From Byssothecium circinans (taxonomy: Eukaryota > Ascomycota > Dothideomycetes > Pleosporales > Massarinaceae), in NCBI GenBank assembly GCA_010015675.1, contig ML977056.1:30482-84666 (forward strand): 54,185 nt of DNA. Reading direction: 5' to 3'. The notes under the pieces are model-generated. The model did not search any database, had not been told where the DNA came from, and saw nothing but the letters and a program-made list of their open reading frames with translations. The position numbers and the translations under genes are program-made. This document shows positions 27,146 through 52,958 of this stretch, in pieces. Numbering within the stretch: the first letter of the stretch is position 1; every line of letters begins with the position of its first letter.

Positions 27146-27335
27146 GGCTTGGGAGACTCCGGGATTCGGATATTTTAGTTGGGTATGTTATAATGGCTGT
27201 ATTGTACTTGTAGGATAAGGTCGATTGTGGGAGTTGTGCAGATTGTTGGAGGACAGTATGCATGGAAAACTGGTTGGAATTTGTCCCAATTGCTATTATG
27301 CTCAATGATTTGAAGTTATCCGCTCTGACCCAGCA

Positions 27336-27377
27336 CCGTTCGCCACCGTCCGCGAACAGTTCGCAACCGTTAAGACC
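27336..27377. repeat. Left-end iterons of copy A
   Basis: Contains CACCGTTCGCCACCGTCCGC followed by GAACAGTTC at 27,354-27,362 and GCAACCGTT. The same words, tripled, are at the left end of copy B, and in inverted form at the right ends of both copies. Confidence 0.7.
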
Positions 27378-27473
27378 TTCAAATTCCACACGCATCCAGT
27401 TACTTCATGCCTTTCGCTATCCCACCCACTAATTGATCTAATGCTGACAGTAAACCTATCCTCCAAAATGCAG

Positions 27474-30400
27474 CTAGTTGTCAATCTCCATAGGATCATC
27501 TGCAGTGCAACCCTCTGGCAGCAAGGGATCCAGACCGTCAATGACATAGGCGTACCGTCTAATACTCCTCCAATCCACCTGCGCTCCATCTACTGTACTG
27601 ATTACAGCTTCACCATCCTTCTCACCCTCTTGAATCTGCTTCTTCGTGGCTTGCTTGAAATGTTGCTTTTGGAGGATGGTGAGCTCTGAAGGACAACGAG
27701 CATTGCATAGGATCAAGCCCGTCGTGAGAGAGGCAAGTTGACCGATTCGGTAGATTCTAAACAGGAACTGATCTTGTTTTGCGACCCTGTCCTGCGGCTC
27801 TACCAGTACGACCGTGTCTGCCTCCACTAGAGTGATGGATTCTGCAAAGGCCGTCACTGAGGCAAGGAGAATAAAGCGACTGTCTTCGGATCGCCATCGG
27901 TCAGCAGTCCTGCTTCGCTCGATTTTATTCTCGTGGCCAGCACAGTAAGCGATCGCCTCCTCTCCAAACTCATTCGTAAGCGCCTCGCGGAGCAGCATAA
28001 GGACGACTGGTTTGTATGATCCAATCAGAATCTTGCAGGGTTGAGGTTTTGGCGGGTTCGTTGGAGCACCGTAAACTGCGCGCACGCCAGTCCTCTGCTT
28101 TGTGTCGCGGCATAGACCAATGATAGTTTTTAGTTTTTCACTGTCTGCGATGCACGTTGTCAGGTTCTCTGTTAGAGGCCATCTCCCCGCCGGTGCGTCG
28201 GGCTGTCGGATCTTGTCGTAGCCTGTCATTCGCTCGGCGCTTATCTCCTTCACGAACTTTGCGGAACCCTTGAGGTATGCTGAGTCTTTATTAAACTTCC
28301 TCCCATCTCTTTCCGCAATTTCCTTAGCCCGCACCATCCATTTCTCTACGATCATGCCTTTCAAATGCGCGAGGCCGGGGAACGTCGCAATTGCTTGTTG
28401 CTCGTGTCGGCTAAAGAACTCGCCAACAACTTGCTTAAACGCGCCTGATGGTGTAGCGCCGTTCCTTAACGTCGCGAGATCGGAGATGGCTTTCCTGATT
28501 GTGTCGCGCCATGTGTCATTTTGGCAGCCCACAAACTCAGTCTTGAACTGACCTTCAATTGCTGCAATCTTTCGCCCCCATGGATCCCGTGTCTTGAGCG
28601 TTCGCCGAATCATGAAAAGCGGGAGTATTTCGTGTCCAAGCTTAATCGCGTTGCGCCATTGTTCGCTCTCGTAGATTTCATCGTGAGGACTCTTAGCAAT
28701 TCTGTCCGCCATTCTCTTCCAGGCGTTGGAACTGTCGATGCCCTTCTCGTCGATTAGATCCTCCAGTTGAGGTACTTGGAACTCCAGCACTACCTCGCCG
28801 GTGCCCTTCTCACGATCATACTTTGCCACCCAAGTCGCCCAATTACCATACGGATTGCCCTCCTCTTTGTCCCTCCTTGCGACTTCAACATTCAAGTAGG
28901 CTTCCCAGCTCGCCTCTGACCCGTCTCCATCGTATTCGGGGGTACGCTCGAGTATGCCTTCTTTCCATCTTGCAATATCTGGGAATGGTTTCTTTGCGCT
29001 GATCTGCGGCGGTTTGTTGACCGCAGTAGACATTCCGACCATACCCCTTCTGATGAGAATGTACATCTCTTGAAGGCCCGTCTCCATTGGTGTGCCTGAT
29101 AAGCCCCAGACTTTGAACGGCATATTTTGATTTGCGTTGCGGAGGTGGTCGTAGAATTTAGGGAACGTTGTATGCTCTCCCTTGGCATTGTGATACTCAT
29201 CGTACACAATACGACCGAAGACAATTCGATTCTGGATTGACCAATTTTTGACGGCATGTCTTTCTATCCATTGTCCTCTGGTGGTTGGTCGGTAGTATTC
29301 TTTTCTCGTTGTCTGGACTTTGACAACGCTGAGAGGGTATATCGTGTTTCCAGCCACAGAATTCCCTATGCCGATTCGAGAGATGAAGGAGTTGTGGCCT
29401 ACTATGAGGAAAAAACGACCGGCAGACGGCGCTGGTCTCCGAGGCGTCGATCCAGTAAAGTTCTCGAATTCTTCCATTTCATGCAGTTTGTATTCGGTCT
29501 CCATTGTCGTCCGGTTGCCAGCGGAAACTTTAGACGACTCTCGGGCCCCAGGTGCGTTGTTCCTGCTATTCAACCATTCATCGAGGTTGGTGGCAATCCG
29601 CATCTCGGACAGCTCATCCTCTGTAGGTGGCGGTAGGGCACTGTCTTTGTTTTTCATACAAAAGCAGAACCGCATAGGATATTTGCATTGGACCGTATGC
29701 ATGTAGTACGAGCCGACAAGCCACTGCTTGACCTCTTCCAGCCATGCATTCACCGAAGTACCAGCTCCCGAGATGAGGGTGACAGCCAGCCGTGGCGGTT
29801 TGCTGCCGAAGGGACAGTCTTGCTCGCAGACGCAGCGAAAAGTTCGCTCGTAGCGGGAGGGGCAGCGGTCGTCTAGACGAAGGTTTTCGTGGTTTCGGAT
29901 GTTGTGGCGGGAATTGTCTTGAAGTTTCTTCGCTCTCCTCCACTCCAACCATAGCAGCAAGTGCACATGTCCCACTACAAGCATGAGCAACATCGTCCTA
30001 GTTTTTCCCATCCCCATCATGTTGCCCAGGACTCCGCCATTTCTCCAGGAGATCTCCATCATATACATGTGGAATGCCTCTGTCAGCTGATAGGGCGTGA
30101 ATTGTACATTTGGTAGGTGCCATTGCCGGGGCAGTTCGATGTAGGTCTCGTTTTTCATCTGGTCAAGGCTAACGCCGAAGAATGTAGCTGCCTGGCTCCA
30201 ATCGTCCAAGGTGCATCGCTCGATCTTTCGCCCAACTTTGTTCATGAGCTCGTCGTTAGCCCTGGTGAGAAGTTAGTGATCAGTTACCGTTTGTCTCTGT
30301 AGGGAACCGTTCACTTACTTCGAATTCATGATGGCCCTTCTCTTGTCCGCCTCTTCATTCAATCGTGCCTTTTCCTCGTCAACCTCATTGTCTTCTTCAT

Positions 30401-31871
30401 CCGGATCCTTTATCTCTTCTGCATCTGACACTATCTCTAGTGCCTCTTGGTTCGCAGGCGGCACCGGCAGTGGGGACTTGGACGGTCGAGCACCGTTATT
30501 CGGAGGGATGTTCTTGGTCGCGTTGTGTTGGGGTTTTGTTTTGGTCGTATCATTTGCAGCATGAGATGACTTTTCTGCAACCTTCTTTCCGGTAGAATTT
30601 CCATCCTTGGTCGCTTTTTCGACCTTCTCGCCCCCCTTTTTCTCGTTCCTCTTCCTGTTTGTATGAGCCTTCTTGCGAGTTTGGCGGGTCTTCGCGTTTT
30701 GGGATTTGTCGCTGTTGGGTTCAGGCTCCGAGCCGGAGCGTTCACCTAGAGTGGAAGAACTTTCCGAATTGGACTTCGGCAAATAAGACGATCCTTGGGA
30801 GGATTCTCGTAGATCGGACTTCTCCTCAGTGCGTGGCAAATGGAACGACTCTTGTGACGGTCCCGGACTGTTATGGGCGGTCTTGGTCTCTTCCTCGAAC
30901 GGGCGCTTCTTGTCTCGAATTGGGCTTTCCTGTATTGCTGCTAATAGTTAGACTATGCACTCAAAACCTTTTATAGCTACATCGACAATGTACTTACTAG
31001 TAGGATTGAGCACATGAACCATCACGTTCCCATATTGCTTTGTCGTTAGGCACCTCTGAACATAGCCTTGCCATGTTGCTTGGGTTGTGATGGGTGAAGA
31101 ATCAATCGGGCTAGTCAATGTAGAGACTCCTCTCTTAAAGTGCGGGATCTTGAGTTCAAGTCGCGCTAGGAGTCGCTCGAAGCTCAGATCATCCACTTCC
31201 ATATCTTCTTGAAATCCCCTCACACCGTCGTCGGTGTCCTTGTCGAACGGGTCCCATATTGTCCATGTTGATATTGAGAGGAGAACGTTGTTGTTGGTCT
31301 GGTCCACGATGTGTATTATTACATCGCGAATGGATAGGTCCGAGGTTCGTAGGCTCATCTGACCCAGCTGCACAGACCCATGAGAGGATGCGGAGCTGCT
31401 GCGTCGGCGGCGGTCCACATCGTCAATCTTTTCTCCACCTGCATCGGTCATTTCGGTGTCGCCATCTTTTTTCACCACGGGAGGCTTTGACCATTTGTCT
31501 AACTTCTTTAGTTCCGTAAGTATTGTACTGGCCGTCGCATCTCGTGCCTCCGGCGGGACAGCTGGATGTCGGAAGCGCGGGAACTCCACGTCATGGAACC
31601 ATTGAAGGTGAAAGCCTTGTCGTTTGAACATGCGTGTATTGCTCTGCGTGCTGCCCTTTGCCACTGCCTGTTCGTACACCTCTTTCTCTTTCAGATATTG
31701 ACGCAGGTCGTCGACGAGGCTCTTCCATGTATCGTCATCGATTCCCCATGCAGCCTTGGTATTCCCCACTGATGCGTAACGGTTCGGTGGTGGTATAACC
31801 GTAGACCAGTCGACACCTGGGTCAGGACTCCATTCGTCCGTTGCAGATGTGTTTAGTTGACTTCCCGTCAT
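27474..31871 (-). CDS. SNF2-family ATPase encoded by the repeated element, intact
   Basis: Three exons: 31871-30998, 30940-30319 and 30261-27474. The two introns are 57 bp (donors GTAAGT) and the joins keep frame, giving 1,427 aa. Residues 1-291 are a domain also found as the stand-alone protein at 45,386-46,555. Residues about 292-499 are a Lys/Ser-rich linker, with the basic RDKKRP near its start and an acidic patch near its end. The ATPase follows: Walker A GMGKT at 582-586, motif Ia-like PRLAVTLISG, motif II DEYH at 853-856, motif III-like GLSGTP at 885-890, and motif VI YRIGQ at 1336-1340 in the usual SNF2 spacing before the C-terminus. SNF2 proteins are dsDNA translocases that remodel chromatin or displace proteins; the substrate here is unknown. 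Cys-rich spots (CVCEQDC, CKYPMRFCFC) sit between Ia and II. Intron 1 has a TAG/CAG tandem acceptor (NAGNAG). Its copy-B homologue is a pseudogene. Confidence 0.85.
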
Positions 31872-31883
31872 CGTAGGGTCGCG

Positions 31884-32083
31884 CTACTGATGGCTTTGTG
31901 TCGCGGTCGTGCTCGCCGATGTCTCACCGCAGCCTTCTATCGGTTCGAGGCCTGTCTCAGGTTAATACATTGTGATATTGTCTGGCGCGTGATGCTTAGA
32001 TACTTGCCTTGCCTGTAGGTGATCGTATGGGCCTCGCAGTCGCTACTCTCGTCGTCGTATGCCCAGAGTTTCCACTCAATCAT
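31884..32083 (-). CDS. 47-aa microprotein ORF with GC-AG intron, just upstream of the SNF2 gene (copy A)
   Basis: Two exons: 32083-32008 and 31951-31884. The 56-bp intron has donor GCAAGT, acceptor GACAG and a TTAAC branch-like site. The spliced frame has 47 codons, begins MIEWKLWAYDDESSDCEAH, and ends with a TAG 12 nt before the SNF2 ATG, in the same frame. Copy B keeps the same ATG, exon lengths (76 and 68 nt), intron borders and stop, with 7 of 47 residues changed. The peptide is acidic with aromatic residues near its start and Ser/Thr near its end; no known domain. It may be a uORF controlling the ATPase, a separate small protein on a bicistronic mRNA, or an N-terminal extension reached by readthrough of the TAG. 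Missed by ORF-length cut-offs. Confidence 0.55.
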
Positions 32084-34017
32084 GCGCGTAGTGGGGTAAT
32101 GGGTGTCAAGCAGTCAAGAGCTGCGTTGTGGCTCAGACAAAGACAACGGGCGTACTTGATATAAAGGTAGAATGTGCGTTGACTACGGTGCCAGGTGAGG
32201 GTTGCTCAGAGTTTGTTTGTGGGGGAAGGTGGTACGGTCTGGTAGCTTCTCTGACGTAGTGAGGGTGAAAGTGAGTACTATCTTTCTCACGACGCTCGCG
32301 CGCAGGCACGTGGTTGGTCTGTGCGTCCAGTTTGCACGTGAAGGCCATATTTTAACCTCGTGGTACAATCTTTGTGAAGATAATCTTGTTTAGAATGTGG
32401 GGTGAGAGTTTGCCTCGTTACTCTGATATCGTAGTGCCCAGCCCGTCGCAACAATGGTGGGTTTCCCGGCAGCAATACGTAGAATCGATAGACTGGGTGG
32501 CGGCTGTGCCTCTGTGACGAGTCACGACGATTCGATGTCGTAGGGTTACGGTGCGGAACTGTTCATGGACGGTTCTCGTCTGTTCCTGGGTATCGTTCTT
32601 CCGTCGTCTCTTTATCACGGATATTGGAGGGTGGCCAGTTGTCCATCTTCCCCGAGCAATGCGTCTCTGATTTGGTAGATGCGTGCCGTGATTCTGCCAT
32701 GCTTCGTTTGTCTAGTCGTCTCGTTGGTGTGGTGTCGCGGGGGTACGGTGCGGAACTGTTCATAGACGGTTCTCGTCTGTTCCGGGGTATCGTTCTTCTG
32801 TAGTCTCTTTATCACGGATATTGGAGGGTGGATAGTCGTCCATCTTATCAGAGCAATGCGTCTCTGCTTTGGTGGATGCATGCTGTGATTCTGCATTGCT
32901 TCGTCTGTCTAATCGTCTTGTTGGGGTGGTTTGGTAGTATGGATAGCGCAGTCTCTCGCGGATGATGTGCGCAGATTTGGCATATGTGGTGGTAGAGTTA
33001 GGTATATGATCTTACTGCGAACGGTAGTCGTTCGCTATACATCGAGGGCGGTGCATGGAGGTAGTAATAATACGGGTAGCCACCCTCCTACCTTTCTCGC
33101 TTTGGGCTTAAGTGACTGTTTTGTCGCTTAGACGGACGTGCACTCTTCGCAACCATTCGGACGACCGTAAAACCTCGTAGTAATGCTGTGGGACTGTATG
33201 TCGCTTGGTCGATAGACTCGAAGATACGGGACTGCGAGGTGTCAACTTGGTACTTTGCATAAAATTAAATAGTTGGAATAAGACGTAGATACAACGATAT
33301 AATGCCGTCTTTGATGCGCAGATGGCGGCAATTGCTATTACCTATGATACATATCTTTGCTGCTCTTCGCGTGAGATAGGCATATGTATAGTAGCCCCTT
33401 GTATTGTTGTTAAAGTCCTTACCATGGTATTAATGTCGCATCCCCCATCATCTGCTTTTGATCCTCGTCTGAACGTATTATCTCGCGCGTAATTATAATA
33501 TTCGTGTGGTGCTTTGTAGCTCTAAAAAGCATATAGATGGAGGTTAGATGTGAAGTATGTTATCAGCTGCCAAGGTCGGAGGCATGGTTTATCCGTCCGT
33601 CGTAACCTTACCGCGACATGACGTCTCTGGCTAAACGCTGTTGGATAGTATTATCAGGAGGCGACTTCACGAATTTTGTACATTTAAATAGTACGTCGAT
33701 GGTAAGAGTCCCATGTTACCCATCTAGAGCCACTGAAGGATGCGTATTATTTGTGTTCTCGATGGCGTGTTCGCTCTTTGCTAGACCAGTAGACGTGCAA
33801 ACTTCCGTCGAGCGTTAATGAACTGTCCTGTAGCTCTTTATACTTAATAACAGTCTTACTTATCTGTATATGCTACTCTAAGAAGCCTAATTTTCTCTTC
33901 AGGAAGTGTAAGTATGATATTGAAATACATCGCTCTGATCGTAGTAAACAATATGTACAATATAAAAATCTCGTTCATGTCTAGGCACGCCCAAGGTGCT
34001 ATACAATATTCCCATTC
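32084..34017. repeat. Spacer of copy A with two ~197-bp tandem units and a 330-bp copy-specific segment
   Basis: Tandem units are centred on TACGGTGCGGAACTGTTCAT, with GAACTGTTC at 32,556-32,564 and 32,753-32,761 (period 197 bp). Each also carries GGACGGTTCTCGTCTGTTCC and a shared GCAATGCGTCTCTG block. The array lies upstream of the microprotein/SNF2 genes and downstream of the stand-alone gene. From about 33,306 to 33,650 is sequence with no match in copy B. Nothing in the spacer has a convincing open frame. Confidence 0.75.
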
Positions 34018-35178
34018 GTCCCCAACACTTAAATTTTTTTGGGATTCTCGATCATCTATGCCTCAATCCTCCAAACCTGTGTTAATTACTCACACCGTGT
34101 GCGGTTAACACGTGTTGCAGTTAAGAATATGCAGTAGTATAGCATACCCCGTTTTAGGGTGCGCATAGGCGCGGTCCGCGGTAAGATCTCCCCGCTGTAT
34201 CCGTAGCATTTTATCTGCTAGAGTATGCAAATCTGCGTTGTCCGTCCTCTATTAATGCATTGCATAAAGGGACAGGAAGCTTTAAAAGACTACGGAGTAA
34301 ATTCGGAATAGAAACAATTTGCTGATACTAAAGCCTTTCAAGTGCGATAAGGTAAAAAACAATGCCAGTCTCCTTTGCGTCTCACCCCAGTCATTCTTTG
34401 CCTACCATCGTCCAGTACGGTATTGAGAGCGTCCACCACCCTAATAGTATAAAGTATACTCTTCGCAGACTCACACGTTACAAGGATACCAGCACATTTC
34501 AACAAAGTTACATACTTCCACTGCAGCTCAGGAACTGTACGTTTTATCCCCGTCGACCCGATCAACGACATAGTTCTGCTTGGTGTCGCGCCGCCGGGGT
34601 CAGCTGCCAGTCTTCGGAGAGCATCTGTTATACCTGTACCCTCCTCGTTCTTCACAATATACTCTTGCTTCACCCCAAGTTGCTATTTTTGATCGGGTAC
34701 CGTGCAACCTCTTGCATTTTCCACTAGACATGACAGGTTGCTTGCTTTCTGTTCTCGGCCGGAACTTCGGCATGGCGGAGGGGTTGACATGGCAGCCCTT
34801 GTGGCCATTTCGCATTATGCTTCTTATGTACCCCAATGGAGATTTCCGGTACTTGTGTCTCTGCCAACATGGTAGCGAACGAGCCCGTCCCCTTCACCAT
34901 TCCGACAGGTAGACACAGATCAGTTCTAGCGTGCCATCGTCGAAACCAGATACTGTTGTGGACCTCTTTGACTGATACTTGGGGAGTTCAGACCAGGACT
35001 TTATTGTGATCCTCAACGTAGAGTGTTGGTGTCCACGGGCCAGCTATCGCAGTGGCTGCGATTTTAAACGCGAGAGGTATGGGAGACGAGGGTGAGGAGG
35101 ACTCGAGAGGTGTCGTAGTCGCGCTATCTTGCGGCGGCGGGGGTGGAGGGTGGAGGTTGCGCTGTCTGATGGCGCCAT
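34018..35178 (-). pseudogene. Decayed copy-A version of the stand-alone SNF2 N-domain paralogue
   Basis: Collinear with the intact gene at 45,386-46,555. The start codon (35,178) is kept, but the frame is broken by stops and frameshifts. The longest surviving piece (34,673-34,338) still reads MKQEYIVKNEEGTG, like the intact copy's MKQECIVKNEEGAG. The first third is rearranged relative to copy B around 34,900-35,030. The 5' leader, including the splice-like sequences just above the ATG, is kept. Confidence 0.8.
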
Positions 35179-35341
35179 TGATAACTGTGTATGTTAGTGT
35201 GACCCATGGCCGTACCTAGCTATTAGGCTGGAATCTTACAGGGGATGCGCGACAATATGGCGCCTTGCGTTACTGGCAGGGCTGTGAGGTGGCGAGTATA
35301 TTGCGACGTAAGATTGTGTTATGATGGTTGACGGTAGTCAA

Positions 35342-35370
35342 GAACCGTTGCGAACCGTTGCGAACAGAAG
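35342..35370. repeat. Right-end iterons of copy A
   Basis: Two direct copies of GAACCGTTGC (35,342 and 35,352) followed by GAACAGAAGG, with 10-bp period. They are in inverted orientation to the left-end TTCGCAACCGTT words. They lie about 165 bp upstream of the start codon of the (decayed) stand-alone gene, so they could be promoter elements, terminal sequences, or both. Confidence 0.7.
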
Positions 35371-36069
35371 GCGTGCGTAGGTAGATGCAGACGGCAGATG
35401 TGCGTTGTGTAGGTTGCAGAGTCCAGGCATTCGTGGCGGGAAAGCGCGCAGCTGTACAGGGCGGAATGGTAAATATAATAAAGTAGCGGGTGGTGATGGT
35501 AAGGCATAACATTTGTTGTTGAAACTTGAAACATTGAAGTAGAAGGAAAGGTGGGGTACGGGGATGGATCCTAGACTAGCGTATCCTTGGCAAAAATTCA
35601 TCCTGAGCATCGACATCGACCCCATCCTGCCTGCCACCCTCGCAGTCCCATCGTCGTCTGACGCGGCGCAACAAAAGCAATCATCCTATATAAATTATTA
35701 CAGCCTGCCGCTGTTTTAATAGACTCTGCCACGACAATTCCTGCATCCGCCCGCGGGCACAGTCATCACACGTCACCACCAAGACATACTATTCCACGGC
35801 CCAAAACGTTTACATTTTTCTATCACTATATCTTGCTTAATCTTAATGTCTTAGGACAATTCAGTTACGTATGTTCTCCTCTCCCTAGCTTTGAACTCCT
35901 CCACATTCTCTATTTAAACTCTACTAACAAAATTTCAGTAGATTTCACATTAAGGGATACTCCTATACTGTTACGACCGAAAGCTCATCACCTCCGAACT
36001 CCTTCCACACGTAGTCCGAAAACCTCCATGTCCTAGCCTCGATCTCGCGTTCGATACCGCGTGACCATC

Positions 36070-36203
36070 ATGACATCACCTAATACCCCCGCTGGTCCGC
36101 CCACTCCGGATCGCTCTTTGACTCACGCCTTCGCGCACGCGACGCGAGCGCCAAACGCACTCGATGTCATAGGCAACACAGCGCCTACCCCACACAAACC
36201 TTT
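36070..36203 (+). other. Possible orphan exon
   Basis: ATG at 36,070 opens a Pro/Thr-rich frame (MTSPNTPAGPPTPDRSLTHA) that runs to a good donor GTGAGT at 36,204. A CTAAC and a CACAG acceptor follow at about 36,235-36,254, but the joined frame meets a stop after 9 more codons. It could be the first exon of a decayed gene. I do not recognise it. Confidence 0.22.
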
Positions 36204-37389
36204 GTGAGTATATATGCAATTCAGTCAACGACTACTAACAAAAGTACGTCACAGAATGGCCCAATGGATAAGCGCGCGATGATGAAGGGAAATCTACCCA
36301 GCTCATGTTTCTGATCACAGCATGATGGAATGTAGATACTTGTACCTAGTCTGAATGCGCATCAGGTCCTAGCTAAGTTCCTACCCCTAGATGATATGAG
36401 CTCACCGTGTCACAGTTCGAATCCACGCCGCGCCGGCGGCTCGTCTTTTTATTTGCTTTCGGTGTTTTTCCTCTCTCTTTTTACTCTGTCGGCTTCGCCT
36501 TCGCCCTCACCTTCGACAGCGACACGCATGCGACCACCGAGGGCCGCGACCTTGGGGGCGCTTGCTTGGTCGTCCATCTCGAATCAGGGTTAGGTGAACA
36601 CACATTGAGGCGAGCCCGGAGACTGTCACGACACTTGGAAGTCAATCACCCCGTGGACGCCCACGATTCAATGCGCGCATGCCGACTCTCGGAGGATGGT
36701 GAGATGGTAGGATAGCGACGCTGCACCCTGATTCTAACTCTTCTCGCGATTCGTGCGATTACTGCATGAAATCTTTCGATGTATTTTTGATCATGCACTG
36801 AAAGCAGCTTGGTCGTTTTAGTGTGGGTGGCATCGCCCGATCGGTTGTGAGAGCCGGTGGTAGCACTTATGTTAAAGTCCTGGTCAGAACTCTGGCAGAG
36901 CCATGCAAATTATGCACGCAGAAAAGCTACATCTTATCTCTCGTCTTAGTGCCGGCTTTCTCTGCTCCACGAGAGCGGCGTAACGGGCATCTCGTCAACC
37001 CTTCCAACCCGAGCGCCTAGGCAAACCGTGGATGTTCGAAGGCAGCCAAATAATCATTAGTTTATCGCCGCCATCCACATCCACATTTTCGAGTGCGCGC
37101 ATTGACAGGGATAATTTGGTCTACGGAGATGCTCAGAATGGCGGCATAAGAATTGAGTCATGAGATGACAAGGTACGACTCTCTCGAAGCCCACCACGAA
37201 TCCGCTCCCTATCCAATCTTCCCAAACTTTTCACTTGAAGTCGCCCCCAAATCACGGCTAATCTCTACTCTAGGGCTACAAATTCTTCGCAATCCCCTGC
37301 TTCGTCGCTACAGACCTCACCGTCATAGACATGTCCCCGCGACTATGGCTCAAGGGAGATACTCGGACAATGGGTGCAGGGTAGGAAAG

Positions 37390-37878
37390 GGCACGAAAAC
37401 TCCGCGACGCTGAGCTGCAGAAGCGTGAGGATGCCAAGCGTCAAGCATAGGAAGCTGCCACCGAGCGTAGACGCAAGGTCCTCGAAGAGCGTCAGAAACT
37501 TGAAGGACAAGATCGGCACTACACGGGCAAGTGCCACACGAATGACGCGAATGGCGTGTACGGCCACGTCTCTTCATTCGCCAACGAGCGGGTTTCAATA
37601 GTGCCCGAATCCATATCAGTCGCCGTAACTAAGGATGGTGACACCGTCGATGTCGAGATTGCGCCTGACGAAGACATCTAGGACGACCCGACCGAACTCT
37701 GCAGGCTGCTGGAGAACGAAGAGAGTACTAAGAACACTTGGGTCACAGTCGCAATCGCATCCGCGAAGCCCAAGAGGCTGGATGTAGGCATAGAGTTCCT
37801 CTCCAGGCCAGCGCTGTGGCAGCGCGGACGCGCCAAGGACTGGCTCAGCATCATCAACGGCCTATGTTGGCTGTCACC
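37390..37878 (+). pseudogene. CTR9: Fragment resembling the N-terminus of Paf1-complex subunit Ctr9
   Basis: One frame reads ANGVYGHVSSFANERV from 37,550, then DGDTVDVEIAPDED, a TAG stop (37,679-37,681), and DDPTELCRLLENE, NTWVTVAIASAKPKRLDVGI and DWLSIINGLCWLSP. This matches the pattern I know for the start of fungal Ctr9 (DDPTELC..LLENE, W.TIA.AYAKQ, D.AIEIL, R..LLN.LCWL), a TPR scaffold of the Paf1 elongation complex. Just upstream in the same frame is an Arg/Glu-rich stretch (EAATERRRKVLEERQKLE) with another stop, like Ctr9 C-termini. That would put tail before head, implying rearrangement. The functional host gene must be elsewhere. Identification is from memory of the family, without alignment. 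Confidence 0.55.
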
Positions 37879-38955
37879 TACCTCCTCCGTGGCGCCCCAC
37901 CATCGGCACGTCTGCCGCTATTCTCAATGAATGCATGGATGCGTTATAGCAGTGCGTCGACGATGCCTGCGCAACTCGAACAACAAGAACCTTCTGGCTA
38001 GGATGGTAGCGCCAATGGTTCAAGAGAAATCGGCGTCGAAGCCTGGTGTGTCAACAGGCTGACCAATCGGAATGTTTGGAGGTCTAGGAGCGGGGAGAAC
38101 CGAGGCCGTCGAGAAAAACTTGCGGGTCGAGCGCCGCCGAGAGGTTTAGTACAGCCCTCTGCGATTATTTCTGTATGATAACTATAAGCTACTCAATATC
38201 ATAATGGGACCCTCATCAAAATCATTTTCTGGGCGAGGTCATATGGTACGTCAATACTTTAGTGTGTTGTTGGATTCTATGTAAGGGTGATAGCGCACCA
38301 ATTGTCGCATTTCAAATGCTTCTTCGTGATCTCATGCCTAGTGGTCGCACAAGTCTTTGCAGCTTTATAGCCTCCTTTGCATACTCCGCCTGGACAGGGA
38401 CACCGCAGCCTGTCGCTTTGGGCTCCAGTTGACGCAGGGCTAGCCGCTCAGATTGGCGGTCAGCATCCTTAACATAGTTCGCATCAGTGTGGCCGACATA
38501 CAAGGCGAAGCGGCGAGGTCGTGCACGTGCTTCAGGTAGTTGGAAACCTTCTGTACTCACCAAAGATATGGCTAGGGTTAGAGGAGGAGCTGTTGGCTTG
38601 AACGACTGGGGAAGTCAGGCCTGGGCAGGTAAAATTGTCGGAGGAAGAGAAAAGGTTGAGTGAAATTTTGCAGCGAAATGTTTCTTCAGCGGCTTCCTTT
38701 GGATTTCGAGGATTATGCAGCGATGCATGGCGCAAGGGGGAGCAGAGCTTGAATTGGACGAGCGTGCATGTTGGATGAAAAACTTGGACTACCGTCTCAA
38801 AACGTCATGCACTAACGTCAATTATATCCCTCCTCCACGTACTGTATGTATTCAGACTGCTGGGGTTTCACCCCCAAATAACCACCCACATTAAGCATTT
38901 TGCGCTGTCCTGTCACTCATGACCGTCAATTAGTCATGATATCAGAATCGTGACC

Positions 38956-39022
38956 GTCCATGAACAGTTCGCAACCGTCCGTGAACAGTTCGCAACCGTC
39001 CGTGTACAGTTCGCAACCGTTA
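38956..39022. repeat. Left-end iterons of copy B, three 21-bp units
   Basis: Three direct copies of CGTCCRTGAACAGTTCGCAAC-like sequence with 21-bp period. The GAACAGTTC core is at 38,962 and 38,983, and the variant GTACAGTTC at 39,004. Copy A has only about one full unit at the same place, so unit number has changed since the copies separated. Confidence 0.85.
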
Positions 39023-39121
39023 ACACCTTCAAGTTTTACATGCCTCCAGTTACCTATGACTTTTAGCATCCCGCCTACTAAATAATCTCGCGCTGACCGT
39101 AACCCTATCTTTCAAATACAG

Positions 39122-42100
39122 CTAATCGTCAAGTTGTATGAAATCGTCAACTGCATCACCCTCTAGCACGGAGGGTTCCAGATCATCAATAACACATGCA
39201 TACTGTCCAATCTTCCTCGATTCCACCTGCGATCTCTCCACTGTATTAACCGCAGCTTCACCGTCTTCCTCGCCCCATGGATCCGCTTCTTCCTGACTTG
39301 TTTGAAATGTTGCTTTTGCAGGATAGCATACTCGAAAGGACACATAACATTGCATGGGATCAAGCCCGCCATAAGAGGGGCAAGCTGACTGATTCAGTAG
39401 ATTCGAAACAGTAACCGGTCTTGTTTTGCGACCTGCCTATGGTATCCTGCGGTTATCCTAGTACGACCATGTCCGCCTCCACTAGAGTGATCGATTCTGC
39501 AAAGGCCGTCACTGAGGCAAGGAGAATGAAGCGACGGTCTTCGGATCGCCATCGGTCGACAGTCCTGCTTCGCTCGATTCCATGCTCATAGCCAGCACGG
39601 TAAGCGATCGCCTCCCCAAACTCATTCGTAAGCGCCTCGCGGAGCATCATAAGGACGACTGGTTTGTATGATCCAATGCAGGGCTGAGACTTTGGTAAGT
39701 TCCTTAGAGCAGTGCAACCTGCGCGCACGCCAGTCCTCTGCTTCGTGTCGTGGCATAGAGCAATGGTATTTTTTTTAGCTTTTGGCTGTCTGCGATGCAT
39801 GTTGTCGAGTTCTCTGTTAGAGGCCAGCTCCCGCCGGTGTGTCAGGCAGAAGCCTTGAGGTATGTCGAGTCTTTATTAGAATGACTCCCAACTCCTTCCG
39901 CAATTTCTTTGGCCCGCACTATCCTGTTCTCTGTGATCATGGCTTTTAAATGCGCGAGGCCGGGGAACGTCGCAATTGCTTGTTGACCATGTTGGCTAAG
40001 AACTAGCCAGCAACGTGCTTAAATACGCTTGATGGTTCACTACTGCTCCTTCGCGTCGCGGGATAGAAAATGGCTTTTATCATTGTGTCGCGCTATACGT
40101 TATGTCGGCAGCCCACAAACTCAGTCTTGGATTGACGTTTAATTGATGTAGTCTTTCGCCTCCAAAGATCGCGGCTCTTGAGCGTTCGCTAAATCATGAA
40201 AAGCGGGAGTATTTCGTGTCTAAGCTTGATCGTGTCGCGCCATTCATCGCAAGGACTCTTAGCAATTGTATCGCTATTCTCTTCTAGAACTGTCGATGCC
40301 TTTCTCGTTGATTAGATCGTCTAGTTAAGGTACTTGGAACTCTAATTCTACCTCACCAGTCTGCTTCTCCCAATCGTACTCTGCTATCCAAGTTTCCTAA
40401 TTACCGTACGGGTTGCCCTATTTTTTAGTCATTTTCGCGGCTTCGTCATTCTAGTAGGCTTTCCAACTCGCTTTAGGTCTGTCTCTATTGTACGCGGGGG
40501 TGCGCTCGAGTATGCCTTCTTCCCACTCTGTAATATCTAGGAATAATTTCTTTTCGCTAATCTGTGGGTGCTCCTTGACCGCGGTAGCTAGTCCAACTAT
40601 ACCCTCTCAAATAGGGATGCACACATCTTAAAGTCCCGTCTCTATTAGTGTGCCTAATAGCTACAGACTTTTACGTGCATGTTGTATGTTGTGCTGTAGA
40701 GGCTCACGTAGAATTTACAGAACGTGGTATGCTTTCCGTTAGCGATGTGATACTCGTCGCACACAACAAGGCCGAAGATTATTCGATATAATGCAACTGG
40801 GGTTATACTCACCTCTTTTACTGCATGCATGCCCTTAGTTCCACGTCGCCAGAGTTCTCGCCTAGTCATTTGGATTGCGATAACGCTAAGCGCGTAGATA
40901 GAGTTTGCTAGCCTAGAATTTTATACGCCGATCTGGGAGATGAAAGAGTTGTAGCCGGTTGTAAGGAAGACCTAACTGGCTGACGGTGCTGGTCTATAGC
41001 ACGTCAATCTAGAAAAGTTCTCACGGCTATTTATTTGATGGAGTTTGTACTTAGTCTCAATTGCCCCCTAAATGGCAACTTGCCCTTTAGATAACTCCCA
41101 GGCCCAAGGTGCGTTGTTCTTCTCGGTTAAGCATTCGCCGATGTTAGTAGCGATTCTCATCGCCGCCACCTCTCTCTCCATGGGCGTTGGTAGGGCGTCA
41201 TCTTCGAATGCCATACAAAAGCAGAACTGTATTAGGTACCTGCATTCGCTCGTATGTATGTAGTGCGACTTGATAAGCCACTAATTAACCTCTTCCCGCC
41301 ATGCATTCACCGCAGTACCTTATCTCGCGGCGAGGGTGACAGCCACCTGTAGTGGTTTGCCGTCAGATGGACAGTGCTGCGTACAGATGCAGCGAAAAGT
41401 CTACCCATAGTTAGAAGGGCAGTGGCTGTCTAGACGACGAGTTTCGTAGTATTAGATGTCCTGGTGGGAATTGTCTAAACTTTTCTTCGCTCCCCTCAAG
41501 TCCACCCATAGCAGCAAGTGTGCATGCCCCATTACGAGCATGAGCAGCATCGCCCTGGTTTTTCCTTCTCTATCATGTTGCCCAGGACTTCGCTATTTTT
41601 CTAATAGAGCTCCATCCTATACAAATAGAAGGCTTCTGTTAATTAACGGGGTTTTGAGAGTAGTTCGATGTAGACCTCGCGTTTCCAAATACTAGGGCTG
41701 ATTCCGAAGAATGTAGCTGCGTGGCTGCAATCGTCCAAGGTGCATCGCTCGATCTTTCGCCCAACTTCGTTCACGAGTTCGGTAGTTGATCCTAGTGTAA
41801 AATTAGCGACTAGTTACAGTTCCTTTCTGTTGGGAACTGTTCGCTTACTCCGAGTTCACGATAGCCTTTCTCTTGTCTGCCTCTTCTCCTAGTCGTGCTT
41901 TTTCCTCGTCGATCATATTGTCTTCTTCATCCGGATCCTTTCTCTCTTCTGCATCTGACGCCATCTCTGGTGCCTCTTAGTTCGCAGGCGGCACCGGCAG
42001 TGGGGACTTAGACGGTCGGGAACCGTTATTTGGAGGGATGTTATTAGTCGCGTTGTGTTTAGGTTTTGTTTTGGTCGTATCATTTGCAGCATGAGATGAC

Positions 42101-43326
42101 TTTTCTGCAACCTTCATTCCAGCGGAATTTCCTTCCCTTGTCGCTTTCCTAACCTTCTTCCCCCTTCTTCTCGTTCCCCTTCTCGCTGGTATGAGACTTC
42201 TTGCGAGTTCGGTGGGACTTCACGTATTGGGATTTGTCACCGTTGGGTTTAGAGTCTAAGCCGGAGTGTTCATGTCGGGATAGAGAATTATCGGAGTCAG
42301 ACTTCTCTAGGATGTTCGACCGATTGTACGACTCTTGCGACGGTTTGTAACGGTTCTGAACAGTGTCAATCTATTCTTCGAGTGCGCACTCTTCAAGTTG
42401 AATTGGGCTTTCTTGTACTCCTACCAATAGTTAGACTGTGCACTCAAAACCCTTTATAGCTACATCGACAATGTACTTACTAGTAGGATTGAGCATATGA
42501 ACCATCACGTTCCCATATTACTTTGTCGTTAGGCACCTCTAGACATAGCCCTGCCACGTTACTAAGGTTGTGATAGGTGTGAAATCAATAGGATTAGTCC
42601 ATGTAGATACTCCTTCCTTGAGATTCAGGATCTTGAGTTCGAGTTGCGCTATGAGTCGCCCAAAGCCCAGACCATCCACCTCCACGTCCTCGTGAAATTC
42701 CTTAACACCGTCTTTTGTGTCATTGTTGACCGGCTCCCAGATTGACCATATTGATATTGGGAGCAGGACAGCGTTGCTAGTCTTGTCTATGATGTGTGTT
42801 ATCACATCGCGAATAGATAGGTCTCAGGTTCGTAGGCTCATCTAACCCAGCTGCACAAATCCATGAGAGGATGTGGAGCTGCTGCGTCGGTGGCGGTCCA
42901 AGTCGTCAAGTTGTTCCACACCTGCATCAATCAGTTCGGTGTTGCCGGTTTTTTCTTTCCTTTTCACCACGAGAGGCTTCAACCAATTGTCCGACTTCTT
43001 TTACTCTCGTGCCTATGGCGGGACAGCTGGATGTCGGAAGCGCGGGAACTCCACGTCATGGAACCATTGGAGGTGAAAGCCTTGTCGTTTAAACATGCGC
43101 GTCTCGCCCTGCTCCTATCTTTCTCCACTGTTGGTTCCTACACCCCGCTGTCCTTCAGATATTGACGCAGGTCGTCGATGAGGCTCTTCCATGTATCGTC
43201 ATCGATTCCCCCGTGCAGCCTTAGTGTGCACCACCGATGCGTAACGGTCCAATGGTGGTATAACCGTAGGCCAGTCGACACCTAGGTCGGGACTCCATTC
43301 GTCCGTTGCAGCTGACTTCCCACCAT
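39122..43326 (-). pseudogene. Decayed copy-B version of the SNF2-family ATPase gene
   Basis: Collinear with 27,474-31,871, from the retained ATG at 43,326 to a retained stop at 39,122, but interrupted by many stops and frameshifts, plus deletions around 43,000 and in the central ATPase part. Surviving pieces include a C-terminal segment with FILLASVTAFAESITLVEAD and an N-domain piece with DPVEF-to-WQGYV-like order at 42,539-42,805. The Walker A region is destroyed. Many differences are CpA to TpA type. Exon-intron borders such as TAGTAAGTAC at the first donor are still visible. Confidence 0.9.
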
Positions 43327-43338
43327 CGTAAGGTCGAG

Positions 43339-43537
43339 CTACTGCGGACTTTGCGTCGCGGTCGTGCTCGCTGATGCCTCGCCGCAGCCTTCTATCAGTT
43401 CAAGGCCTGTCTCGGGTTAATACATGCGATATTGTATGGCGCAGGGCATCTAGATACTTGCCTTGCCTGTAAATGATCGTATGGGCCTCGCAGTCGCTAC
43501 TCTCGTCGTCGTATGCCCAGAGTTTCCGCTCAACCAT
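43339..43537 (-). CDS. 47-aa microprotein ORF with GC-AG intron, copy B
   Basis: Exons 43,537-43,462 and 43,406-43,339, of the same lengths as in copy A. Donor GCAAGT, acceptor GACAG, 55-bp intron. The frame starts MVERKLWAYDDESSDCEAH and is open to a TAG 12 nt before the position of the decayed SNF2 ATG. It has stayed open although the adjoining ATPase frame is destroyed. That hints at its own function, but 47 codons can survive by chance. Confidence 0.5.
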
Positions 43538-43984
43538 GCACATAGCGGGGTAATGGGTGTCAAGCAGTCACGCGCCGCGTTCCTTTTCGGAGCGTAGCGT
43601 GGTCGATGATTTGCTGGAGGTAAAGTCAATTGAGATTTCGGGTGAGTGTTTGTTGTGGTATACCTGTAGAAAAAGGCGGTAGGTATAACCCAACAGCCCA
43701 CTCGAAGGGTAAGAGGGGATGAGAGAGGTATTTTTCTTCTCAACGCTCGCGCGCCAACACGTGGTTGATGTGTGCGAGTGGTATTATACGTTTGAGTTAA
43801 ACGCAAACGTCCCTGCGCCACTATTGTTGAATGTTACTTGCTATATATGCACCGTTACATACACTCTGATACCATAGTGCCCAGCCAGTCGCAGCAATGG
43901 TGGGTTTCCCGGCAACACTACGTAGAATCGATAGACTGGGTGGCGGCTGTGCCTTTGTAACGAGTCACGACGATTCGGTGTCGT

Positions 43985-44640
43985 AGGGTTACGGTGCGGA
44001 ACCGTTCATGAACAGTTCTCGTCTGTTCTAGGGTATCGTTCTTCCGTCGCCTCTTATCATGCGCCGTTCTTCTTGTTTCGGCATTGGCAGGTGGACAATT
44101 GTACTGTACATCTCCCCCCAGCAATGCGTCTCTACTTTGGTAGATGCGCGCTGTGATTCTGCCATGCTTCGTTTGTCAAGTCGTCTCGTTGGTGTGGTGT
44201 CGTAGGGTTACGGTGCGGAACTGTTCATGAACAGTTCTCGTCTGTTCCAGGGTATCGTTCTTTCTTCGTCTCTTACCGTGCGTATTTCTTTTCGTTTGGA
44301 TATTAGAGGGTGGACAGTCGTCCATCTTCCCCGAGCAATGCGTCTCTGCTTTGGTGGATGCGCGCGCTGTGATTCTGCCATGCTTCGTTTGTCTAGTCAT
44401 CTTGTTGGTGTGGTGTCGCGGGGGTACGGTGCGGAACTGTTCATGGACGGTTCTCGTCTGTTCCGGGGTATCGTTCCTCCGTCGTCTCATAGATATTAAG
44501 GGTGGGCAGTCGTCCATCTTCCCCGAGCAATGCGTCTCCGCTTTGGTAGACGCGTGCCGTGATTCTGCCTTGCTTCGTTTGTCTAATCGTCTTGTTAGGG
44601 TGGTTCGGTAGTATGGATAGCTCAGTCTCTCGCGGATGAT
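43985..44640. repeat. Three ~216-219-bp tandem units in the central spacer of copy B
   Basis: Units are centred on GAACCGTTC at 43,999-44,007, GAACTGTTC at 44,218-44,226 and GAACTGTTC at 44,434-44,442. Each is followed by a CATGRACRGTTCTCGTCTGTTC segment and later by the GAGCAATGCGTCTC block. Copy A has two units. Each core and its follower form an imperfect palindrome. Confidence 0.85.
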
Positions 44641-45385
44641 GTGGGCAGATTTGGCATACATGGTGGTAGAGTTAGCTATATGATCTTACTGCGAACGGTA
44701 GTCGTTCGCCATACATCGAGGGCGGTGCATGGAGTTAGTAATAATATGGGCAGCCCCCCTCTCACCTTTCTCGCTGTGGGCTTGAGTGAATGTTTTGTCG
44801 CTTAGACGGACGTGCACTCTTCGCAACCATTCGGACGACCGTAAAACGGATAATTTCTTGCAGCGGTAATATTGTAGGACCGCATGTCGCTTGGTTAATG
44901 GACTTGAGAATACCTAGGTACATACTGCGAGGTGTCAAATCGGTACTTTGCACAGAATTAAATAGTTTGAATGAGAGGTATATACAACGATATAATGCCG
45001 TATAAATGCTTCCGAGTAGCCTCACCAAGAGGCGACTTTAAAGACTCTTGTTTCCGATATCTAATGATACGTTGATGGTGGGAAGAGTTTCCCAGCCCCC
45101 CTCTAGAACTACCGCAGGATGCAGATTGTTTACGTGACAGATGGTATACTCGCCTTTCAGTAAACGAACAGATTTGTACAGTTCTAAGCACGTCCATGAA
45201 CAGTTTCAGAACGGTTTGCATGCTATTACTTGGGGATCAACTATTCTCTTCATAAAGTCCAAATATAGTGCGGAGCCAAAACCACTCTGCTCAAGCTAAC
45301 AACGAATACATCATTCCAGTCTCGTTCGTGTCCACCACCAGGCACACCAACAGTGCTAGCCATTCTCCCGTAATCGTCTCTAACC
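44641..45385. other. Spacer of copy B between tandem array and stand-alone gene
   Basis: No gene seen. It matches 32,965-34,017 of copy A apart from the 330-bp segment missing here. It holds the 3' UTR of the stand-alone gene and, at 45,194-45,217, another pair of motif words (GAACAGTTT and GAACGGTTT). Confidence 0.55.
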
Positions 45386-46555
45386 CTAGGATTTGCGTTT
45401 TTTTCTCGGTGATTCCCCATCATGCGATTCTTGACCTTCGGAACCCGGTCCAATTACTCGCACTGTGTGTGATTAGCATGTGTTCCAGTTAATAATATAC
45501 AGCAGCATAGGCATACCTCGTTTTGGGGTGCGCATAGGCGCGGTCCGCAGCAAGATCTCCACATCGCCTCGCCGCCGCATCCGTAGCATCTCAATCACCA
45601 GGGCATGGAGATCTGCATCGTCTTCCACGAGCGTGTTGTACATGGGGTTGAGGAGCTTAGAAGACGCTAAGTTGAAATCCACAAGGGAGTTGTTCAGCTG
45701 ATGCTGAAGCCCTGCAAGAGTGACAACGTAAGGAACAATGTCGTTCTTTTTTGCGACTCTTCTTATTCTTCTCTGCTCAGCATCATCCATCGCGGGATCG
45801 AAGGTGTCCACTATCCGAATGGTACAAAGTGTGTTCTTTGTAATCTCGTCCTTGACAAGTATACCACCATCTTTCAATTTGGTTGGATGTTCTCGTTGCG
45901 GCTCGGTGACTGCACGGTTCATTTCTGTCGATCCGATTGACGACACGATTCTGCTTGATGTCGCGCCGCGAGAGTCAACTGCTAGTCCTCGGCGAGCATC
46001 TGACGTCCCCGCACCCTCCTCGTTCTTCACGATACACTCTTGCTTCATCTTTAAGTTGCCATTTTTGCTTGGGCACCGTGCAGTCTCTTGCATTTTCCAC
46101 CAAACATGCCAGGCTGCTTGCTTTCTGTTCTCGGCTGGAACTTCGGCATGGCGGAGGCGTGGACAAGGTACATCGGCCAACCATTGAGTGATATAACTGT
46201 CTCGTATCTTACTCAAGTTTTTCGATCCTTCCTTCTCTGCCTGCATCAGCTGGAAAGCGCCCGTCTTCTGCGCCCATTGGGTCAAATGCCAACAGAGAAA
46301 GGACAGCGCCACATCGTCCAAATCAAATGCGCGTTTAATTCTATCACCTGGGACCTTGGGGGTTCGAACTAGGAGTTTCTTGTACTCGTCGGCGTTGAGT
46401 GTTGGTGTCCACGGGCCAGCTATCGTAGTGGCTGCGATTTTAAACGCGAGAGGTGTGGGAGACGAGGGTGAGGAGGACTCGAGAGGTGTCGTAGTCACGC
46501 TATCTTGCGGCGGCGGGGGGTATGCGATGGGGGTTGCGCTGTCTGATGGCGCCAT
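45386..46555 (-). CDS. Stand-alone paralogue of the SNF2 protein's N-terminal domain, intact
   Basis: Two exons: 46555-45517 and 45462-45386, phase-1 join over a 54-bp intron (donor GTATGC, acceptor CACAG), 371 aa. The second exon ends SPRKKRKS, a typical basic nuclear signal. A further 55-bp intron (46,616-46,562, donor GTAAGA, CTAAC before CACAG) probably lies in the 5' leader. Similarity to residues 20-320 of the SNF2 protein is seen by eye in order: TQWLADVPCPRLRHAEVPAE against LQWFHDVEFPRFRHPAVPPE; TIRIVDTFDPAMDD against SISTWTIWDPFDKD; then GDVEILLRTAP against GNVMVHVLNP, directly before an intron of the same phase, and QESHDGESPRKKRK against QESPIRDKKRP. No known domain recognised. It may pair with, compete with or target the ATPase (inference). 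The copy in A is broken. Confidence 0.75.
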
Positions 46556-46728
46556 TGATAACTGTGTATGTTAGTGTGACCCATAGTTGTACATAGCTAC
46601 TGGGCTGGAATCTTACAAGGGATGCGCGACAATATGGCGCCTCGCGTTACTGACAAGGCTGTGAGGGGGAGTGTATATTGCGACGTAGGATTGCGATACG
46701 ACGGTTGATGACAGACAAGAACTGTAGT

Positions 46729-46758
46729 GAACCGTTGCGAACCGTTGCGAACAGAAGG
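46729..46758. repeat. Right-end iterons of copy B
   Basis: GAACCGTTGC at 46,729 and 46,739 then GAACAGAAGG, identical in order and spacing to copy A. They lie about 175 bp upstream of the stand-alone gene's ATG and upstream of its putative leader intron. Confidence 0.75.
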
Positions 46759-46885
46759 CGTGCGTGGGGAGATGTGGACGGCAGATGTGCGTTGTGTAGG
46801 TTACAGTCTAGGCATTCGTGACGGGAAAGCGCGCAGTTGTACGGGACGAAATGGTAAATATAGTATAATCCGGTGGTGAGCGGTG

Positions 46886-47488
46886 AAGATGAGGGTGAGG
46901 AGACAATAGGAAGAGCGCCGTTTCAGTGTAACAACGTCGAGCTACGACGGTCTAACTCGATTAGTCCAACACGTGGAACTATGACGTCACGTAGCCTTCA
47001 ATGCCACGTTTACGAAGAATAATCGTCACCACCTTTTTTTTTTTTTTTTTTGTGCGGGCGGCATAGAAATCACACCCCATAGATGAACGATCTATAGATT
47101 TGACGTGTTGTTACCCGCCCACGTGCCGCCTAAGCCTCCATGTCATTATTATTATTCTCAACGCTATGTCTCCGTAGACCCTCCAGGATTGTACCCTGTA
47201 TCTAGCGGCGATCGGCAATCTGTCACTTTTTGTGTGGCTAAAGCTGACATGCGTGCCACGAGGCGCTAAGTAAGCTGTAGGAACATGAAAAAAAAGTTAA
47301 CTAAATCACACTTCAATAATTCATCACCACCACCCTGCGCTTACCTTTTTGCGCTGAATTAGCCGCCATCTGTATGCGCGTCACATACAAATTAACGCGA
47401 AGTCGATGCGACGTGTGGTTGTTGCGCAGTGGTAGGGGGCAGCTTAGTAATTTAATTAGATAGCCGTACCTAATAACTACTTGATATA
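46886..47488. other. Intergenic stretch between copy B and the Fot1-like transposon
   Basis: No gene seen. It contains a run of 18 T at 47,034-47,051 and a TGACGTCA palindrome at about 46,982. Otherwise nothing recognisable. Confidence 0.45.
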
Positions 47489-49339: not shown

Positions 49340-49341
49340 TA

Positions 49342-51854: not shown

Positions 51855-52958
51855 ACGTAAAGCACCATCGAACCGCCCACACCATTGAACCGCCCAAAAA
51901 TGCTTGGCAGAAAATCAAATAGTCAACCTTTAATAACAATTTAAATATAAGAGCTATAAAGCTGAAATTTTAAATACAGATATATATAATATAGAATAAA
52001 AGGATTATAAAAAAAATTCTAGGATTTCTAATAGCTTAGTAAGCTATATAAGTATAGAGAATTCTAGGTTCACTTAGGCTTTATACCCTACAACACCTAA
52101 TAAACTAGCTAAATAAATTATAATAACTTTAGAGCTAGTTTATGTATATATAATACACCTATTAGTACTAAAATTATAGCGTGCAGCCTAGACCTATTAG
52201 AGAATTAGCGTAGAGAGGGTAGAGATTCCTAAAATTAGAAAAATATAAATAAATATTTTATCTAGCTAGATATTCTTACTTTTTTTCTTTTAATAAACTT
52301 TATATATATATATAACAGTAATATAAATAGTTAGCTATAAAAAATTAGCTTATATAAGCTTCATAATAAGGCAGTGTCTAAATTTTCTAAAAATCTATAC
52401 TTCCTAAGCTAGATCTTTTAGTTTTAGAGGTATTTACTTACTTTAAACTTATATATAGCTTTATTTAGTATATACTATCCTCCTCTTAAGAAGGAAGTAA
52501 GGATATCTAGTATATATAACTTTATTTAAAGGGATTACTAACTTTTCTTACCCTCTACCTTCTACCTCTTATAATAGCCTTAATTCTAGGTCGCACGCTA
52601 TAAACTCTTAAATAGCTATTAACTAATATAGTAATAAGTAAGTCCTAAAAGTTATATAGTATAATACTAAGGTTTAGGTATTAATCTATAGTATAAGGTA
52701 GATTTTAGGTACTAATACTTTATAGGTTAATAACTATTTTATTACGTAAGCTATAGCTATAAGAATTTAATACCTACTAGATTATATATATATTTATCTA
52801 GGTTTAAAATTTCAAAAGAAAATATTAAGGTTTAGCTTTGTTATTAAGATAATACTCTTTGGTTTTCGCTGCCAAGCATTTTTGGGCGGTTCGATGGTGT
52901 GGGCGGTTCGATGGTGTGGGCGGTTCGATGGTGTGGGCGGTTCGATGGTGCTTTACGT
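51855..52958. mobile_element. Non-autonomous relative of the Fot1-like element with RIP-like interior, 1,104 bp
   Basis: Begins ACGTAAAGCACC and ends GGTGCTTTACGT, the same 12-bp ends as the element at 47,489, with TA on both sides (51,853-51,854 and 52,959-52,960). The left end carries two subterminal units (ACCATCGAACCGCCC type), the right end four. The interior of about 950 bp is AT-rich, nearly lacks CpA and TpG, and has no transposase frame. The ends, by contrast, keep many CpA and TpG sites. Either it is a short derivative that captured RIP-mutated DNA, or RIP spared the ends. Confidence 0.82.

Follow-up and report, generated by a model that had tools for sequence, protein, structure and literature searches.

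The window, that is, the whole stretch of 54,185 nucleotides of Byssothecium circinans DNA that we analysed, corresponds to positions 30482-84666 of contig C80 in an assembly of 48.4 Mb and 109 contigs. (Coordinates below are those of the window unless they carry a contig prefix.) It contains two copies, A and B, of an 8-kb unit that encodes an SNF2-family ATPase and a smaller companion protein, and the non-coding DNA of which carries arrays of a short motif, GAACNGTT. By self-BLAST the copies are collinear direct repeats (27335-35477 and 38985-46862) with 73-87% identity, and a global alignment puts copy B's left edge near 38953, with copies A and B ending on the right near 35481 and 46867, respectively; the DNA outside the copies is dissimilar between the two. 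On the minus strand the gene order in both copies is companion, then a long non-coding stretch with a minisatellite, then ATPase. The right end of the window, some 7.3 kb past copy B, is the end of contig C80 (84,666 bases). (Note that the record of the copy A protein gives a contig of 88,360 bases; the scaffold may extend slightly further.) The copies, their genes and the DNA between them are as follows, with protein lengths in amino acids (aa).

27335..35481, genes on the minus strand: copy A, direct repeat of copy B, with its left edge inside a motif array
38953..46867, genes on the minus strand: copy B, as placed by self-BLAST and global alignment
27474..31871, minus strand: intact SNF2-family ATPase gene of copy A, 1,426 aa, two introns (exons 31871..30998, 30937..30319 and 30261..27474)
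~39100..43310, minus strand: decayed ATPase gene of copy B, with 29 in-frame stops and 15 of 22 exon gap events frame-breaking when compared to A
45386..46555, minus strand: intact companion gene of copy B, 371 aa, P0008 = CC80DRAFT_540934, one intron (exons 46555..45517 and 45462..45386)
34084..35178, minus strand: decayed companion gene of copy A (exon-1 part), with 4 in-frame stops and 7 of 7 exon-1 gap events frame-breaking
35482..38952, no strand: spacer between the copies, outside the repeat, 3.5 kb, with no motif enrichment

The ATPase is therefore open in copy A only and the 371-aa companion in copy B only. An earlier note on this DNA had described a two-copy SNF2 unit with fixed gene order and reciprocal gene loss, a description that self-BLAST, the placement of the exons, and the counts of stops and gaps bear out; the ATPase that it gave as 1,427 aa is indeed intact in A only, at an annotated size of 1,426 aa. 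Two observations concern the spacer: 37385-38006 holds three shuffled fragments whose identity with a C29 gene is 84-89% (it encodes a TPR protein that by eye resembles CTR9), and some 135 bp at 36843-36978 match 20 other places with 72-81% identity. Rfam and tRNA scans of the window gave no matches.

The spliced exons of the copy A gene match the annotated protein P0001 (CC80DRAFT_314514) exactly. The predicted protein has the motor motifs MGMGKT, DEYH, SGTP and QDQFLFRIYRIGQ, and its motif I, DExH box and R..R.GQ motif VI place it, by sequence, within the SNF2 family as defined. Both Pfam matches are weak: the 923-aa exon scores 25.6 bits for PF00176 (SNF2-rel_dom; cut-off 24.9) and 25.0 for PF00271 (Helicase_C; cut-off 23.5), and the full-length protein 24.1, just below the cut-off, and 24.6, respectively. 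A profile of the ATPase matches the solved motors of Rad54, ISW1, RAD5 and INO80 with a best E of 4.1e-8. Thus, like the SNF2 translocases Rad54, ISWI, Rad5 and INO80, the protein has the motor motifs and, by profile, both RecA-like lobes; unlike them it has weak profile scores, a long segment between motif I and the DExH box (approximately 260 residues, with three invariant cysteines), an N-terminal domain of its own and an adjoining stand-alone paralogue of that domain. These features mark it as a predicted SNF2-type motor remote from the well-known branches. A search of 5.8 billion proteins, which depends on shared five-residue words such that remoter kin can escape, found a family of six members including P0001 itself; among the five others, two pairs are 65% and 50% alike and all other comparisons give 32-40%. 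A second search with the six-member alignment added one match, a generic plant SNF2-type protein (E 8.7e-8, 12% query coverage), and neither the 69 pattern matches in viral contigs nor the 131 in prokaryote genomes were confirmed as relatives. A structure model of the ATPase exon from the six-sequence alignment, with a mean predicted local distance difference test score (pLDDT) of 48.7, was too low in quality for use.

The companion aligns with the N-terminus of the ATPase (blastp E 5.4e-8, 22.6% identity; hhalign probability 91.5; genome-scale E 5e-6) and is, as judged from these matches, a paralogue of the ATPase N-terminal domain, residues 39-303. Both genes of the set that the earlier note listed are present, but they are not unrelated. 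The simplest picture may then be that a partner or regulator was made from the motor's own domain, and formation of a companion-ATPase complex is plausible. Relatives of the companion beyond contig C80 were not found, P0008 standing alone among 3,040 candidates. A two-sequence structure model (mean pLDDT 49.5) was again too poor for use; in a Foldseek search it drew 216 matches with E <= 10, of which none reached E <= 0.001 and many of the top ones were PB1- or ubiquitin-like; no conclusion was drawn from this. The linker of the ATPase holds the basic clusters RKR and RKK and the companion carries RKKRK; from these basic clusters only, both proteins are predicted to be nuclear.

The disablements are one-sided. 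In the copy B ATPase, 18 of the 29 stops in A's frame need one substitution only; all 18 single-substitution stops lie in copy B (P = 7.6e-6 under equal neutral decay). Similarly, all 11 disablements of companion exon 1, a count that leaves out one gap inside the annotated intron, lie in copy A (P = 9.8e-4 under equal neutral decay). Moreover, of 163 residues that are invariant in the five distant ATPase relatives, A retains 133 and B 86. The one-sidedness suggests that one working copy of each gene was selectively retained, and selection thus looks the likelier reason for one survivor per gene, in line with one of the possibilities that the earlier note had raised, namely that a complete set is kept by selection. 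That both copies are decaying neutrally, with each gene so far unhit in one of them by chance, fits the weak codon-position bias of the differences between the copies; we consider it highly improbable in view of the 18/18 and 11/11 counts and the loss from B of conserved family residues that A keeps. (Note that we set aside the reciprocity itself as a sign of something special: two genes each kept once at random separate half of the time, so that, given retention, the reciprocal outcome is a one-in-two event and carries no information on mobility.) In the dead genes the bias for C-to-T changes at CpA is mild (ATPase, 117/573 vs 53/527 in the opposite direction; companion, 45/161 vs 25/145), and indices of repeat-induced point mutation are mild in copies A and B and strong in the AT-rich tract; such mutation is a candidate cause of the decay, though not clearly the main one.

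Conserved non-coding DNA is 88.8% identical between A and B over 1,441 chosen alignable columns, with 3.1% transversions, when compared to 78.4% and 7.1% for the ATPase exons and 72.7% and 9.7% for the companion; the non-coding figure is a hint only, as it omits 32136-32420 (48.0%) and 33309-34083 (57.6%, 375 gap columns). The left end goes the opposite way, with 79.6% identity over 137 columns.

Within this non-coding DNA, GAACNGTT words at 10-11 bp spacing occur at both edges of the unit, in inverted orientation with respect to one another, and in the minisatellite.

27335..27371, no strand: left-end motif array of copy A
38953..39020, no strand: left-end motif array of copy B, 3.2 units of 21 bp
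32536..32930, no strand: internal minisatellite of copy A, period 197, motif in every unit
43977..44488, no strand: internal minisatellite of copy B, period 216, motif in every unit
35342..35367 (C80:65823-65848), no strand: right-end array of copy A, exact three-unit 10-bp pattern upstream of the companion start
46729..46754 (C80:77210-77235), no strand: right-end array of copy B, exact three-unit 10-bp pattern

The spacing, one helical turn, is a pattern that an oligomer on one face of the DNA would bind, and we regard the GAACNGTT arrays as putative oligomeric protein-binding arrays. Against 200 shuffles each, copy A has 18 half-sites vs 4.0 expected and copy B 32 vs 3.9. The excess lies in the non-coding parts and ends (13 vs 1.15 in A, 23 vs 1.44 in B), whereas the intact coding exons are at chance level (ATPase of A, 2 vs 2.0; companion of B, 1 vs 0.5). 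There was no enrichment in the 27-kb host flank (9 vs 12.0), in the spacer (1 vs 1.5), or in three other C80 stretches and one C29 stretch. Across the genome, the three-unit pattern with three or fewer mismatches occurs 898 times (425+473) vs 23 (14+9) for the reversed pattern. Exact matches number 32, which make up 22 distinct arrays; of the 30 examined, 21 are in pogo-like elements, 7 in a second repeat family and 2 in the units. (The remaining two matches lie in the pogo-like element of the window and on C99, respectively.) The array-bearing DNA of the unit thus shares one motif with two unrelated repeat families.

The first of these families is represented next to copy B.

47478..49343, plus strand: pogo-like transposon adjoining copy B, open 568-aa DDE_1 transposase, same 10-bp-period motif

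Its inverted ends contain 17-bp tandem units, half-sites are enriched in it, and phased GAACNGTT arrays run inside its reading frame; on its plus strand, 8/8 successive same-strand motif neighbours less than 60 bp apart are exactly 10 bp apart, which suggests that the DNA, and not the protein sequence, carries the signal. Elsewhere in the genome the element has at least 187 match pieces, with 40 of 731 candidates scored. An AT-rich element of 1.1 kb at 51880-52950 has inverted ends like those of the pogo-like element and is 97-98% identical to places on C39 and C41. The second family, a dispersed repeat rich in the phased motif, is found at L069 (C43:380761-383196) and also on C32, C18 and C29; positions 397-2012 of L069 hold 20 half-sites vs 1.0 expected. 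(Membership was checked for L060, L063, L065 and L043 against L069, the other three matches being further registers of the same arrays.) By eye this repeat resembles a long terminal repeat retrotransposon, a label that we do not claim, there being no Pfam match in the frame scanned.

These distributions bear on whether the locus might be a host gene pair of the ordinary kind, specific to the lineage, that underwent duplication and reciprocal loss, with the arrays being general transcription-factor sites in repeat and gene promoters (AACNG is the core of Myb-type sites). Such a pair would need only selection on both genes to produce the reciprocal loss; the arrays do occupy what are presumed to be the promoters of the two genes, and repeats elsewhere carry them too. 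We nevertheless think this explanation unlikely, if the least so of the alternatives, given that all 30 of the examined exact-match loci fall within the two repeat families or the units, and that the host flank, the spacer and the four other stretches show no enrichment.

Mobility is a further possibility, albeit an unlikely one: the 8-kb unit could be a low-copy mobile element that moves whole, by an unrecognised enzyme or in trans, and that inserted twice nearby. The boundaries are identical in unlike flanks, motif arrays stand in inverted orientation at both edges, the motif is common to a transposon family, and the ATPase family is very patchy. Yet the target duplications that the earlier note had in mind did not appear at the aligned copy ends, where no flanking word of at least 4 bp is shared within 20 bp outside the copies and none of at least 5 bp in wider windows, and beyond the motif words the edges have no inverted repeat. 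Genome-wide searches with the DNA of the unit, the ATPase and the companion returned only copies A and B, with no third copy or solo end anywhere in the 48.4-Mb assembly, which speaks against the recent spread or repeat family that had also been suggested. In agreement with the earlier note, Pfam scans of ten further open reading frames, besides the ATPase and the companion, recognised no transposase family; together these are a part of all the frames in the unit. With no target-site duplication, no long terminal inverted repeats, and two neighbouring copies only, the unit is not classed as a transposon, and mobility is retained as a rival.

As far as the accessible parts of the source go, the helicase-encoding AcademH and KolobokH DNA transposons (PMC10799480) resemble the unit in having a helicase-type gene in a low-copy fungal unit, and differ from it in that here no transposase domain and no target duplication were found. 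Starship elements, in the accounts partly available, are likewise fungal, of low copy number and unusual in gene content, but none of the 23 stretches in this genome that match DUF3435, the Starship captain family, is on the unit's contig; we therefore rejected a Starship, with the reservation that a contig lacking this tyrosine recombinase is possibly incomplete. (The DUF3435 stretches are found, for example, on C40, C60 and C91. Most have internal TAG or TAA stops, which suggests past decay by point mutation; three on C35 do not.)

Telomere-linked helicases are RecQ-type. A subtelomeric repeat family akin to them would suit the position of copy B, with the contig end some 7.3 kb away beyond an AT-rich tract, and the fungal repeats of this kind, so far as the sources at hand describe them, share with the unit a helicase-type gene near a contig end. 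The motor here is of the SNF2 type, however, with SNF2-rel_dom and Helicase_C by Pfam; there are two copies only and none at other contig ends, and no telomere repeat was found in C80 1-30000 or the window (30001-30481 lying outside the search). We rejected a telomere-linked helicase on these grounds, and a subtelomeric family of any such kind is very hard to credit.

The nearest parallel to the arrays is the VANDAL/VANC system of Arabidopsis, in which dense same-orientation motif arrays in non-coding DNA are read by an anti-silencing protein that the element encodes (PMC5735166, PMC10398659; the comparison is with the accessible parts of both papers). Tandem motif arrays in non-coding DNA, a feature of that system, are found in the unit too, as same-orientation arrays of a short motif alongside a unit-encoded protein of nuclear type. 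The unit differs in that no Mutator-type transposase and no VANC-like protein was recognised in it, and binding here is predicted only. Moreover, the VANC21 motif is rare in other transposable elements (PMC5735166, same parts), whereas the motif described here occurs also in two unrelated repeat families.

Our preferred reading, to which we give a probability of about one half, is that a nuclear SNF2 locus of two genes was duplicated locally long ago and is linked to the motif-binding factor that the repeats use. One gene would specify an SNF2-type DNA motor of the nucleus, equipped with an N-terminal partner domain, and the other the partner domain alone. After the duplication, the ATPase would have been kept in A and the companion in B, one working copy of each being needed. 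Their products would form a nuclear remodelling complex, in which companion and ATPase may meet or compete via the shared domain, and the array-binding factor common to locus and repeats would either drive expression of the locus or be supplied by it. The reader of the arrays could accordingly be this SNF2 locus or a general factor common to locus and repeats.

Several results weigh against this reading. Taken alone, the companion stops are just 4/4 (P = 0.125). The A/B differences have a weak codon-position bias (0.203, 0.190 and 0.257 for the ATPase; 0.287, 0.228 and 0.307 for the companion), and synonymous changes make up 150/446 of single-change-or-stop codons, approximately 34% vs 27.5% expected without selection; this weak bias and modest excess indicate that, by this measure, constraint on the survivors since the split was not strong. 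The N-terminal regions of the relatives P0005 and P0006 match neither the companion nor the ATPase N-terminus (P0006, hhalign E 0.28 and 0.66; blastp E at least 0.24), so a partner domain elsewhere in the ATPase family finds no support. The decayed ATPase of copy B has 8 half-sites vs 1.9 expected, and arrays can thus arise in decayed DNA. In addition, the motif was read off the units first, which makes the enrichment there partly circular; the independent evidence is the genome-wide counts and the two repeat families. Finally, there is no sign that the proteins of the locus themselves bind the motif.

A more far-reaching version, which we hold to be quite unlikely, is that the locus is a fungal sequence-guided chromatin-control unit, in which an SNF2 motor and a stand-alone targeting or partner domain act on the helically phased GAACNGTT arrays that mark its own DNA and both repeat families, and control several repeat families in trans, by freeing or silencing them. 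The "selfish chromatin-targeting unit" of the earlier note gains an indirect argument from the phased arrays shared with repeats; it is not proved. In the open-access literature, so far as its texts were available, we found no description of the gene pair or of the array (subscription journals lay largely outside the search).

The locus is real and unusual; the story of its duplication is simpler than first thought, and its non-coding DNA is stranger. It offers a clear natural example of a duplicated gene pair of which each copy has kept a different member, and it represents a very sparse branch of SNF2 proteins. If the arrays bind one factor, then three unrelated sequences in one genome, namely the DNA transposon, the other repeat and the SNF2 locus, would share a single cis-signal by convergence or by recruitment, with the SNF2 pair as the obvious candidate reader. 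This raises the question of a single trans-acting locus that controls unrelated fungal repeat families; were such trans-control true, the locus would stand beside the plant VANC systems as their fungal, motor-driven equivalent, and its targets would be shared among unrelated elements.

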